From contig JAFMKU010000010.1 in the NCBI GenBank assembly GCA_017852795.1, positions 1 to 51,888 on the forward strand: a DNA stretch of 51,888 bases. The letters run 5' to 3'. Numbering within the stretch: position 1 is the first letter of the stretch; each line of letters opens with the position of its first letter. The position numbers and the translations under genes were made by a program. The notes under the pieces were generated by a model. It saw only the letters and a list, made by a program, of their open reading frames with translations. It ran no database searches and was not told the DNA's origin. The DNA comes from Candidatus Neomicrothrix sp. (GTDB lineage Bacteria; Actinomycetota; Acidimicrobiia; Acidimicrobiales; Aldehydirespiratoraceae). This document shows, one piece after another, positions 48,340 through 51,888 of this stretch.

Positions 48340-49722
48340 TCAGCGCGGGGCTCGGGGCAGCGAGATCACGGCGTCAATCCCACCGTCCGGGTTGTCGTCG
48401 AGTCGGGCACTCCCGCCGGAAGCGTCGGCGAGTTGCCGCACGATGCTGAGCCCGAGGCCGGTGCCTCCGCTTGCCGCGCTGGGTGAACGCCAGAACCGGT
48501 CGAAGGCCTGCTGGCGTTCTTCGGCGGGCAGGCCCGGCCCCTGGTCGATGACGTGCACGTCGACGCGGTCGGGGTGTTCGTCGACACGAATTTCGATGGT
48601 GCTTCCGTTCGGCGACACCTCTAAGGCGTTGTCGATCAGGTTGTCGATCATCTGGTCGAGCCCGGTTGGCACCACCATCACCGCTGGTGGCTGAGCGCGG
48701 CCGGTCACGGTGAGGGTTACCCCTTGTTCCTCGGCCAGCGGGGTCCACGTTTCGGCCCGTTCTTGGATGGTGGGTCCGAGATGGAGCGGTTCGGGTTGGA
48801 TGGAGCTGGCGTCGACGCTGGACAGCACCAGCAGGCCTTCGATCATTCGACCAAGCCGTTCGGTTTCGGCGATCGCGGCGGCCAGATGTTCAGCGTCGCG
48901 TTCGTTGGTGTGTGTCTCGGCAAGGCTTTCGAGTCGGATGCGCAGCGCGGTGAGCGGGGTTCGGAGCTGATGCGAGGCGGTTCCCGCGAAGGCTCGTTGC
49001 CGGTCGAGCAGTTGGTTGACTTGCACCGCCATGGTGTTAAACGACTGGGCGAGCGACCGTAGCTCGGGTGGGCCATCGTTGGGATCGGCTCGCTGGCTGC
49101 GGTCCCCGTTGGCGAACGCTTTAGTGACTCGGGTGAGTTGTTCCACCGGCCGCACGACCGCTCCGGCAAACACGAGGGCGGCACCCACCGCGAGCAGGAT
49201 CGCCACGCCGACGACGAGAGCCAACCCGATGAGCCGACTGTTGACTTCGCTGGTAACCGCGCTGGCGGGCGCGGTGATGCGGATCGCCCCGATGGTGGCG
49301 TCACCGGACAGGATCGGCACCGCAACAAAAAACAGCGGCTCGCCGAGCGTTACTGACTGGCGTTCGCCAGTCACCGGCGCACCGCTAAGGGCCTGCATGA
49401 TTTCGGGCCGGTTAGAGAAATCTTCGGCCGGGTCGAAGCTGGGGCCAATAACGGCGACGGCTGCGTCGTCCACAACAACGACCGAAACTCCTTCGGTGGC
49501 TTCGTAGCGCTGCACGAGGCCGGTCAGCACGATGTCGCTGGCTGCGAGGTCGTTCTCAAGTGCTTCCTCGACCCGCCCGGCCAGCACGAACGCGTCGCGT
49601 TCGAGGCGGGTCACGAGCCGGTCGCGTTCAACGTCGTGCAGGTGCGAAACCAGGGGTAGGTCTTGGACGACGAGGATGGCGAGCACGACCGCCACCAGCA
49701 CGCCGACGAGGCGAAGCCTCAT
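48340..49722 (-). CDS. Sensor histidine kinase
   Basis: 460 aa. Membrane helix 1 spans about residues 5-22, an extracytoplasmic sensing region residues 23-163, helix 2 residues 164-189, HAMP 190-242. The H box is TASHQLRTPLTAL with His251. The ATPase domain has DNLIDNAL (N box), DQGPGLP (G1) and GTGLGLSIV (G2). The sensing region has a dCache/PAS-like strand pattern (VSVVVVDDAAVAVIGPSF). No Cys or metal-binding cluster is visible there. ATG 49722 overlaps the response regulator stop by 4 nt. The signal is unknown; the divergent Asp/His-tail gene may be a target. Confidence 0.9.
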   Translation of the reverse strand: MRLRLVGVLVAVVLAILVVQDLPLVSHLHDVERDRLVTRLERDAFVLAGRVEEALENDLAASDIVLTGLVQRYEATEGVSVVVVDDAAVAVIGPSFDPAEDFSNRPEIMQALSGAPVTGERQSVTLGEPLFFVAVPILSGDATIGAIRITAPASAVTSEVNSRLIGLALVVGVAILLAVGAALVFAGAVVRPVEQLTRVTKAFANGDRSQRADPNDGPPELRSLAQSFNTMAVQVNQLLDRQRAFAGTASHQLRTPLTALRIRLESLAETHTNERDAEHLAAAIAETERLGRMIEGLLVLSSVDASSIQPEPLHLGPTIQERAETWTPLAEEQGVTLTVTGRAQPPAVMVVPTGLDQMIDNLIDNALEVSPNGSTIEIRVDEHPDRVDVHVIDQGPGLPAEERQQAFDRFWRSPSAASGGTGLGLSIVRQLADASGGSARLDDNPDGGIDAVISLPRAPR

Positions 49723-50453
49723 GCCGGCCACTCCGAGGGGGCAACCAGTCGAAAGCCGACTCCGCGAACCGCTTCGATCCACTGCCGATCGCCAAGTTTG
49801 CGGCGGATCCCGGCGACGTGCGCGTCGAGGGTTTTGGTCGGGCCGAACCAGTTGGCGTCCCAGACCCGTTCGATGATGTCGGTTCGGGTTCGGACCGCTC
49901 CCGGGTCTTCGGCAAGGTACCCGAGCAGATCAAATTCTTTCGGGGTGAGCGCCAGGCTTTCGCCGTCGAGGGTGGCTCGGTGGGTGCGGTGGTCAATCGT
50001 CAACGGCCCCACGGTGATCGCCGTGCCGTCGTCGGTAACAGAGCCGCCGGTGGCAGGGCTACCGGTGGTCCGGCCATCGGCTGGGGTGGAGGGGCTGCCG
50101 GTTCGCCGCAGCACCGCTCGGATCCGAGCGATGAGTTCGCGAGCACCGAGGGGTTTGACCATGTAGTCGTCGGCCCCGAGTTCTAAGCCGAGCACCCGAT
50201 CGAATTCGTCGCTGCGGGCGGTGACCACAATGACCGGCACGTTGGAGGTGGCTCGGATTTGGCGGCAGACGTCGTAGCCGTCCATGTCGGGCAATCCGAG
50301 ATCAAGCAGGACGACGTCTACCGGCGCGTCCCGCAATTGTTCGAGCGCGGCGGCGCCACGGTCGAACCGGTTGACGACGAACCCGGCGCGGGTGAGCGGT
50401 TCGTGGAGCGACGCGGCGATGGCGTCGTCGTCTTCGATGAGCAGCAGATCCAC
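49719..50453 (-). CDS. OmpR-family response regulator
   Basis: 244 aa. The receiver domain has acidic pocket IEDDD, phosphoacceptor Asp51 (LLDLGLPDMDG), Thr78 and Lys100 (DDYMVKPLG). A Thr/Ser/Gly-rich linker of about 25 residues is longer than usual. The winged helix ends with TLDAHVAGIRRKLG and VRGVGFRL, typical of the OmpR/PhoB DNA-binding domain. It controls transcription with the histidine kinase that follows. GTG 50453 has no strong box; CAAGCT at 6 nt is weak. Direct repeats about 50-100 bp upstream may be its operator. Confidence 0.93.
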   Translation of the reverse strand: MDLLLIEDDDAIAASLHEPLTRAGFVVNRFDRGAAALEQLRDAPVDVVLLDLGLPDMDGYDVCRQIRATSNVPVIVVTARSDEFDRVLGLELGADDYMVKPLGARELIARIRAVLRRTGSPSTPADGRTTGSPATGGSVTDDGTAITVGPLTIDHRTHRATLDGESLALTPKEFDLLGYLAEDPGAVRTRTDIIERVWDANWFGPTKTLDAHVAGIRRKLGDRQWIEAVRGVGFRLVAPSEWPA

Positions 50454-50499: not shown

Positions 50500-50561
50500 G
50501 GTTCTTTGTCGTATTTACCGGTTTCGCACTGGTTCTTTGACGTTTCTTGGATCTTTGCGGG
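50500..50561. promoter_or_regulatory. Direct repeats GGTTCTTTG in the divergent intergenic region
   Basis: GGTTCTTTGTCGTATTT (50500-50516) and GGTTCTTTGACGTTTCT (50531-50547) start 31 bp apart, about three helical turns; a weaker GGATCTTTG starts at 50549. They lie between the divergent response-regulator and exported-protein genes, in a locally T-rich stretch. Direct repeats are the usual site type for OmpR-family regulators. The spacing is larger than the common 11-bp arrangement. Confidence 0.4.
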
Positions 50562-50666: not shown

Positions 50667-51392
50667 ATGAAAACGTCTTTTGCGAATGCCTTGTCTCTCG
50701 TCGGTGTGCTGGCAGCCGGCACGGCGGCGGCCATGGCCAACACCTCGATTTTCGATAGTGGTTCGAACGCCGCCAACTCGTCGGTGTTTGTTCCTCCGTC
50801 CCAGACCGTTGATCTGGTGCTTCCCGAGGTGAGCGCGTCAGACAGCGCCGTGTTGACCGCAGGATCAGAAACCGAAACAGCAGTCGATGGTTCGTTGCCG
50901 GAACCTTCCAGCACCGGCGGTTCGTCCACCTCGGCGTCGGCGTCGAGTTCGACATCGTCATCGGGAGCCAAAGTTTCGGCGTCGGCGGTGGGCGACGAGG
51001 TGGTGGATTCTCCGGCCGACAGTCCGGTGTCGTTCCTGACCGCATTCAACGTGGGCGACGCCGGCACGGTCACCGTTGACGTGGTGAACGGTTCGCTCCT
51101 GATTGTCGATACGGCTCCGCAGGCGGGTTGGACGGTCGAAACCGCGCAGATGGATTCGGTGCGCAACTCGGTAAAGGTCGCGTTTGTTGATGGAACGGTC
51201 CGAGTGATTTTTACCGCCTCGTTCGATGGGGCGACGATTTCACCGTCGGTTCGTTCTGAGCCAATGCAGTCCAGCTACTACGACGACGATGACCACGACG
51301 ACGATCACGACGACGATGACGACGATCATGACGACGATGACGATGACGATGACGATGATGACGACGATCATCACGAGCGGGACGACGACTGA
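50667..51392 (+). CDS. Exported protein with Asp/His-rich C-terminal tail, unknown function
   Basis: 241 aa. An N-terminal signal segment (residues 6-25, cleavage after an Ala-rich end AAAMAN) leads to a low-complexity Ser/Ala/Thr region to about residue 120. A compact beta-rich domain follows, VSFLTAFNVGDAGTVTVDVV to ASFDGATISP (residues about 120-190). The last 36 residues (206-241) are nearly all Asp with scattered His, a likely divalent-metal-binding tail. Similar domains plus acidic tails occur in exported actinobacterial proteins of unknown role. It is divergent from the two-component system and 5 bp before the next gene. Start ATG 50667 has TGGAG about 11 nt upstream. Confidence 0.65.
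   Translation: MKTSFANALSLVGVLAAGTAAAMANTSIFDSGSNAANSSVFVPPSQTVDLVLPEVSASDSAVLTAGSETETAVDGSLPEPSSTGGSSTSASASSSTSSSGAKVSASAVGDEVVDSPADSPVSFLTAFNVGDAGTVTVDVVNGSLLIVDTAPQAGWTVETAQMDSVRNSVKVAFVDGTVRVIFTASFDGATISPSVRSEPMQSSYYDDDDHDDDHDDDDDDHDDDDDDDDDDDDDHHERDDD
51282..51389 (+). repeat. GAC/GAT triplet tract encoding the Asp/His tail
   Basis: 108 bp of in-frame GAC and GAT codons interrupted by CAC or CAT. The triplet tract encodes Asp and His and is prone to slippage in steps of three, so tail length may vary between strains. Confidence 0.9.
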
Positions 51393-51397
51393 CCGCG

Positions 51398-51888
51398 ATG
51401 TCCGAAACGTTGGATTCCCAGCCTGGAGAACCGGTAAACGAACCGGCGGTGGCCGGCCGGGCGCGACCGAACCCTGCGGGGAAGCGTCGCAATCCGGCCC
51501 GGGTCGCTCGGGTCGCCACGGTTGGCGTTTCGTCCACGGCGGTAGCGGCCCTGATGGCCAGCTATCAACTCAGTGAGAACACCGCGTCGGCAACCACCGC
51601 GCTAGCACCGGTGCAGGATCCGGCGGCGACGCTTGATCCGGGAGTGATCCGGATGAGCGCCGATGCCGAAGTTGTGGTCTTGACGGTCGACACCAACGGT
51701 CGGGTGGTGGACCTGGCCCAGATGGAGTCGGTGGCTCAACTCCAGGCGTTTCTTGCCCAAGCCGAACCGATCTTGGGCGGAGTCGCCGACCCTTCGATCG
51801 CTCCGGTTGCTGATCTGGCCAGCGCCTCGGATCCGACGGCCACCGTTCCCGGCACGGCGCCCGGCCCGGCCCCGGCCCCGGCCACCCC
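51398..51888 (+). CDS. Anchored exported protein, unknown function (3' end beyond window)
   Basis: 163 codons are visible, with the end beyond the right edge. Residues 1-39 are polar and basic (RARPNPAGKRR, ARVAR), then one hydrophobic segment (about residues 40-57, ATVGVSSTAVAALMASY) that could be a signal anchor. A Ser/Thr/Ala-rich stretch is followed by an Asp- and Val-rich segment (VVLTVDTNGRVVDLAQ) and a Pro/Ala run at the visible end. The ATG follows the Asp/His-tail stop by 5 bp, so the two are probably an operon. No family is recognised. Confidence 0.55.
   Translation, partial: MSETLDSQPGEPVNEPAVAGRARPNPAGKRRNPARVARVATVGVSSTAVAALMASYQLSENTASATTALAPVQDPAATLDPGVIRMSADAEVVVLTVDTNGRVVDLAQMESVAQLQAFLAQAEPILGGVADPSIAPVADLASASDPTATVPGTAPGPAPAPAT

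Follow-up and report, generated by a model that had tools for sequence, protein, structure and literature searches.

The 51,888-bp window from Candidatus Neomicrothrix sp. spans contig C55 from end to end, in a draft genome of 2.3 Mb. Near its right end, the plus strand carries the gene for an exported protein of 241 aa (50667..51392), here called TAIL, which is composed of a hydrophobic N-terminus, a low-complexity linker, a beta domain (GW domain; residues 117-196, 51015..51254), and an acidic tail of 36 residues (51282..51389; 29 Asp, 5 His, 1 Glu, and 1 Arg) ending in DDD. The gene for a second, anchored protein with one hydrophobic segment (P2; 51398..51888, plus strand) starts 5 bp past the TAIL stop codon and is cut by the contig end. 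Both genes are divergent from a regulator pair on the minus strand, which encodes an OmpR/PhoB-type response regulator with a receiver and a winged helix (RR; 49719..50453; Pfam Response_reg, 7e-29, and Trans_reg_C, 7.2e-22) and a membrane sensor histidine kinase (HK; 48340..49731; Pfam HAMP, HisKA, and HATPase_c). A sequence-only reading of this region had described the Asp/His tail, the two exported proteins, and their divergence from the HK/RR pair, all of which were borne out. It had also stated that neither exported protein has a recognised family, and the searches agreed: TAIL and P2 matched no Pfam family at E<=1, FMN_bind (PF04205) included, P2 had no match in NCBIfam, and TAIL had a single weak NCBIfam match to its acidic end. 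A hidden FMN_bind domain in P2 or TAIL was thus rejected.

As the window covers the entire contig C55, it is the contig end, and not the choice of the window, that cuts P2. A search of the same draft genome retrieved its sole ApbE match at the start of contig C25, and the last 18 bases of the window are the first bases of C25. Across the join given by this overlap, the P2 reading frame is kept (continuing at L059:19-175 on C25), which yields a full-length protein of 215 residues with the end VPTTTMGTTGGS, the last residue being the predicted acceptor Ser. P2 is followed on C25 by ApbE (L059:165-1091; PF02424, 1e-55, for L059:165-1088) and by a PF01794-like membrane protein, a two-haem ferric-reductase-like cytochrome b (L059:1088-1678). 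As the 18-bp overlap is GC-rich and repetitive, the join leans equally on the gene order, which occurs uninterrupted elsewhere. A search to the right of the window for further members, as the sequence-only reading had advised, thus found ApbE and the cytochrome. Its proposed function, metal buffering or envelope stress, was not retained as the primary role, as the two genes just outside the window point to a flavin/haem electron-export cluster.

RR was taken as the bait for relatives because TAIL and P2 diverge too fast. The search of genome contigs with the TAIL protein found no relative, and the search of 61 genomes with the P2 protein matched only P2 itself; weak TAIL matches were rejected as relatives, as they represented the GW domain in other exported proteins. 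A profile of eight RRs matched in 80 of the 397 genomes of the order (E<=1e-78), and 85 RR loci were examined (77 loci fetched in the main round, seven fetched separately, and the window joined to C25). apbE was in the cluster at 41 of these loci, the window included, with TAIL-P2-ApbE divergent from RR/HK. The cytochrome was also present in 39 of the 41, and the other two (L097 and L048) reached the contig end first. In 44 loci, the divergent strand had no ApbE match reaching 80 bits. These were set aside, and among them the contig end was reached in L102, L105, L118, L121, L135, L148, L163, and L051. In L047, TAIL-P2-ApbE-cytochrome was located downstream of its HK instead. L134 and L136 were near-identical. 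Clustering of the neighbour proteins from the 41 loci and from 28 of 80 named loci revealed no further recurrent family of comparable frequency, and no recurring iron-transport gene was found beside the cluster among the same neighbours.

The named relatives were Acidimicrobiia. The isolate Desertimonas flava SYSU D60003 (L211) carried HK-RR / TAIL-P2-ApbE-cytochrome, and similar gene sets were found in other classes of the phylum (e.g., L286). The system is patchy in its distribution. In the window's genus, a search of the eight other members gave RR matches of only 43-48% identity, the four of them covered by the eight-RR profile search had no match there, and from their sequences all eight seem to lack this regulator. 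Within the window's family, the cluster was seen only in G022 and the window's own genome. Some layouts differed from the common one. In L153 (G261:C10), the TAIL-P2 pair is present twice in a row ahead of a single ApbE and a single cytochrome, with P2 ends SGTTSASG and SGTTKASG. In L137 (G407:C4), TAIL and P2 are seemingly one ORF of 582 residues ending in NSGGS. In L216, L221, L225, and L240, TAIL-P2-ApbE-cytochrome is divergent from genes read by eye as putative NADH dehydrogenase subunits A-D.

A probable RR binding site lies in the divergent promoter of the window (50532..50556, plus strand), where CTT(T/G)G occurs twice, at 50535 and 50546, as half-sites with an 11-bp spacing. The stretch upstream of the RR start (up to 150 bp) was scanned in 52 loci, and 30 contained pairs of CTT[GTA][GAC] at the exact 11-bp spacing; dinucleotide shuffles gave an expectation of approximately 0.5. 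At the remaining spacings between 6 and 40, pairs were found in 0 to 5 loci, and the reverse strand gave none at the seven spacings examined (9-12 and 21-23). Direct repeats about one helical turn apart suit an OmpR/PhoB-type regulator, and the repeat in the shared promoter supports control by the adjacent RR through this predicted site. Together with the recurrence of the arrangement in 41 of the 85 RR loci, the repeat upholds the earlier view of TAIL, P2, and the adjacent regulator as a unit. Homologues unlinked to two-component genes had been named as evidence against such a unit, and some were found: in eight loci (L216, L221, L225, L230, L233, L240, L254, and L260), TAIL occurred with P2/ApbE/cytochrome and had no match to this RR/HK in the stretch examined. 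Thus, the regulator is frequent and not defining.

The ApbE proteins of the P2 systems kept HHxxDP and GGD. Their conserved acid was Glu in 37 of 39 systems, compared with none of the six FMN_bind-linked copies, which have Asp at this position, and the residue four positions after it was Lys in 21 of 39 (Thr to Lys). The six Asp-bearing FMN_bind-linked copies grouped together with one other sequence (support 0.99). If the position of the Asp-to-Glu change is the metal site, the chemistry of the P2-linked ApbE could differ. In three of the loci set aside (L131, L132, and L145), an operon of another kind lies opposite the same RR/HK. By eye and by motif, its products were identified as a large ferric reductase, an SGA[ST]-bearing FMN_bind protein, and ApbE, and neither TAIL nor P2 was found in that slot. 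A hydrophobic N-terminus was absent from all 39 ApbE copies of the P2 systems. FMN loading would consequently be cytosolic, and P2 would have to cross the membrane after its modification, which is unusual. Cytosolic ApbEs are known (PMC12052999).

The cytochrome of the window's cluster scored 27.7 bits against PF01794 (Ferric_reduct), just under the curated cut-off of 28. Four His residues were invariant in the 28 aligned cytochromes (positions 49, 63, 133, and 146 of the first), which fits a pair of MsrQ-type b-haems (PMC8238504, section 10; PMC11334425). The protein has no NAD-binding part, which makes a quinol donor the likelier reading. When the cytochrome profile was compared with PDB sequences, the sole match at E<=0.1 was the metalloreductase STEAP4 (E=0.016), which was weak and partial; STEAP4 is far larger (459-residue chain).

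In P2, a single membrane anchor is followed by a Pro/Ala linker, and the protein closes with [S/T]x[G/A]S at its C-terminus. In 37 P2 proteins, the 25 residues before the helix contained 6.4 K/R and those after it 0.7, corresponding to an N-in/C-out topology, and the part past the helix had a median length of 105 residues, 62% of them P/A/S/T. P2 was picked blindly at the 41 loci, using position, coding score, and a helix only and leaving the motif unused. The C-terminal [ST]x[GA][ST], with at most one extra residue, was found in 35 of the 41 compared with 5 of 594 controls drawn from the remaining proteins at the 85 loci, one of the five being the fused L137 protein itself; these values are kept as counts, and the binomial value, which ignores the relatedness of the loci, was set aside. 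The six loci outside the 35 comprised L107 (TKPS), L111 (TRSS), and four without a pick (L097, L137, L150, and L151). The P2 proteins of L097, L150, and L151 end in SRAS, SHGSR, and TRATP, respectively, and the fused ORF of L137 ends in SGGS. For a second set of 80 named loci, 15 of which were unscorable, the strict motif was present in 48 of 65, and several others ended in T-x-P-S; many of these loci lie on contigs already present in the first set, which makes the second count dependent on the first.

The published ApbE motif is [S/T]GA[S/T] (PMC8238504), and its longer form of seven residues is DxxSGA[ST] (PMC12052999). The upstream Asp was described as essential in one study (PMC10722498) but, according to PMC12052999, mattered little in another. 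Most P2 ends agree with the relaxed motif, and nearly all P2 ends lack the upstream Asp. The end of the L092 protein, DTSSGAS, matches DxxSGA[ST] exactly and is the only one among the P2 ends inspected by eye with Asp six residues before the acceptor. The window P2 lacks this Asp, and its end, TTGGS, is only like [S/T]GA[S/T].

ApbE was found in 41 of the 41 cluster genomes and FMN_bind (PF04205) in eight; the domain search did not find FMN_bind in the other 33, the window's genome included. Exactly one ApbE match was present in 18 of these 33 genomes, the window's again among them, and DUF2271, DUF3570, and FMN_bind were found in none of the 18. Twenty second ApbE loci were also fetched, of which several had a small exported or membrane protein directly before ApbE and others did not. 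The ends THAS, SGGS, SQGS, and SHGS were found among these proteins (L172, L173, L174, L186, and L188). In L172 (G292:C151), a small membrane protein ending in RTHAS, ApbE, a cytochrome, and another regulator/kinase pair run in one direction, and this arrangement is a second design of the same idea. A P2-like protein without ApbE close by was observed in L043 and L133. Overall, P2 is probably a flavin carrier that occurs in nature and bears the flavin at its C-terminus, within a regulated module for electron export; its flavinylation is predicted from sequence.

The GW domain, defined by our own profile, alignment, and AlphaFold2 and not found in Pfam, spans approximately 80 residues before the tail and has a near-invariant Gly-Trp. 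It was detected by the profile in 25 of 52 TAIL proteins. Its AlphaFold2 model (mean pLDDT of 93.3) has seven strands, and the fold search gave no convincing structural match (none by Foldseek at E<=0.001; best VIA Z of 5.9). In L049, L050, and L051, other RR or HK genes have as neighbours exported proteins that carry the GW domain once or twice, and the domain may have its own link to two-component systems. TAIL ended in DD in 38 of the 41 homologous loci, compared with 43 of 604 proteins called in the 85 loci (tails included), and its acidic end is thus not due to chance. It had been anticipated that a tail variable in length and composition would count against the proposal. The length did vary and His was absent from the last 40 residues in 6 of the 41 proteins, but the acidity and the final DD were kept. 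Acid/His runs are not rare in the window's genome. A DNA search also found them in proteins read by eye as ribosomal protein L22 with an Asp-His repeat (L003:998-1687, G000:C112) and cytochrome oxidase subunit I with an Asp/His-rich end (L004:1-1632, G000:C66), and both were set aside as unrelated.

Taking the conserved cluster, the C-terminal motif, the lack of known substrate domains in many genomes, the ApbE signature, and the promoter repeat as the sequence observations to be explained, we infer the flavinylation of P2, the direction of the electrons, the acceptor, and the role of TAIL as follows. HK would sense an envelope signal, and RR would drive TAIL-P2-apbE-cytochrome from the shared promoter, as suggested by the conserved divergence and the 11-bp repeat. 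Cytosolic ApbE is predicted to transfer FMN from FAD to P2, with the Ser/Thr of the C-terminal [S/T]x[G/A]S as the acceptor. P2 would place one helix in the membrane and a Pro/Ala/Ser/Thr linker of approximately 100 residues outside; tethered in this way, FMN would act as a swinging arm with no folded flavin domain around it. By homology to MsrQ-like proteins, the cytochrome with its two b-haems would pass electrons, most likely from menaquinol, to the flavin of P2. The weakest step is that of TAIL, which would hold or present the acceptor close to the flavin; Fe(III) or some other metal is the likeliest candidate. We judge that the module as a whole, from HK to TAIL, has a better than even chance of being correct.

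The role of TAIL is the weakest part of this model because TAIL occurs both with the flavin genes where this regulator pair has no match and with the regulators where ApbE is missing. It occurs beside RR/HK without ApbE in L043, L044, L046, L090, L133, L152, and L158, and may thus serve the kinase rather than the flavin. Such loci would suit a metal-buffering or metal-sensing unit, in which TAIL binds a divalent metal outside and informs or obeys HK, and P2, ApbE, and the cytochrome are incidental or a secondary output. The GW domains beside RR/HK genes in L049, L050, and L051 agree with this, as does the best NCBIfam model for HK, which is a heavy-metal sensor scored far below its cut-off (176 of 292.55 bits). 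However, TAIL joins P2, ApbE, and the cytochrome in loci without a match to this RR/HK and in other classes of the phylum, it is missing where the same RR/HK face the FMN_bind system, and the His residues of the tail are not conserved; we therefore regard the metal unit as improbable. A further proposal deals only with TAIL and could hold together with the flavinylation of P2. The acidic end would bind calcium or a cationic cell-wall polymer and be a mere scaffold or spacer for P2, as could be expected when the tails keep their acidity and final DD but vary in His and length, and about half of them also come with a small beta domain. This leaves unexplained why the final residues are so strictly conserved (ends of the GxDDDD type), and we give it a small chance. 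The kinase partner is held as a rival role of TAIL, and a partner that presents an acceptor or binds metal is favoured; TAIL, as a putative assignment, probably presents a metal or another acceptor.

The identity of P2 as the substrate was weighed in the same way. ApbE might modify an FMN carrier encoded elsewhere, with the Ser-rich end of P2 being a coincidence or a docking or processing signal. The absence of the upstream Asp from nearly all P2 ends and the T-x-P-S or T-x-S-S ends of some systems (L107, L111, and several in the second set) would be consistent with this. However, in many families the motif occupies the very end of a linker that is otherwise of low complexity, the pattern is repeated at separate paralogous loci, and all 18 single-ApbE genomes lack the three known substrate domains searched. 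A carrier encoded elsewhere is thus quite unlikely, and P2 is retained as the candidate flavin carrier. More broadly, we lean towards a phylum-wide natural family of flavins on a tether, in which single-helix membrane proteins, with the C-terminal [S/T]x[G/A]S as the sole conserved feature of their outer part, would be loaded with FMN by a dedicated cytosolic ApbE subfamily and, accompanied by an acid-ended partner, would form a system for electron export, replacing the folded FMN-binding domain and explaining part of the orphan ApbE genes.

In the 2021 survey (PMC8238504), 17% of the genomes in the flavinylation set (2571) had ApbE and no FMN-binding-domain protein, from which it follows that some ApbE substrates are unknown. 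P2 provides a concrete candidate substrate class for ApbE in Acidimicrobiia and other actinobacteria, including the cultured D. flava SYSU D60003. If the prediction is true, a covalent flavin works as a swinging arm without a surrounding protein fold, P2 is a natural short flavin tag, and there is a bearing on how outward electron transfer can be built. No description of this cluster or carrier type was found in the literature searched, which included few subscription journals and no bioRxiv preprints.

By its gene content, the TAIL-P2-ApbE-cytochrome cluster is a putative variant of MsrQ-like flavinylation with a candidate new class of ApbE substrate. MsrQ-like clusters, found mainly in actinobacteria, have apbE beside a two-haem PF01794-type cytochrome, and their electrons are predicted to pass outwards onto a covalently bound flavin (Meheust et al. 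2021, eLife, PMC8238504). The cluster described here shares apbE and the two-haem PF01794-type membrane cytochrome, but its cytochrome has no NAD-binding part, it lacks the FMN_bind protein that is typical, though not universal, of the MsrQ-like clusters, and TAIL, P2, and the two-component pair are added. Like DUF2271, DUF3570, Flavodoxin_4, and FMN_red (PMC8238504, PMC11334425), P2 was found as a candidate substrate by its partnership with apbE; those are folded domains, whereas the part of P2 after its helix is approximately 62% Pro/Ala/Ser/Thr. The closeness to Flavin-tag, an engineered C- or N-terminal DxxSGA[ST] (PMC12052999, PMC10722498), lies in the modification, predicted here, of a short end peptide without a folded flavin domain. 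Flavin-tag is engineered, whereas P2 would be a natural, membrane-tethered protein end with a relaxed motif.
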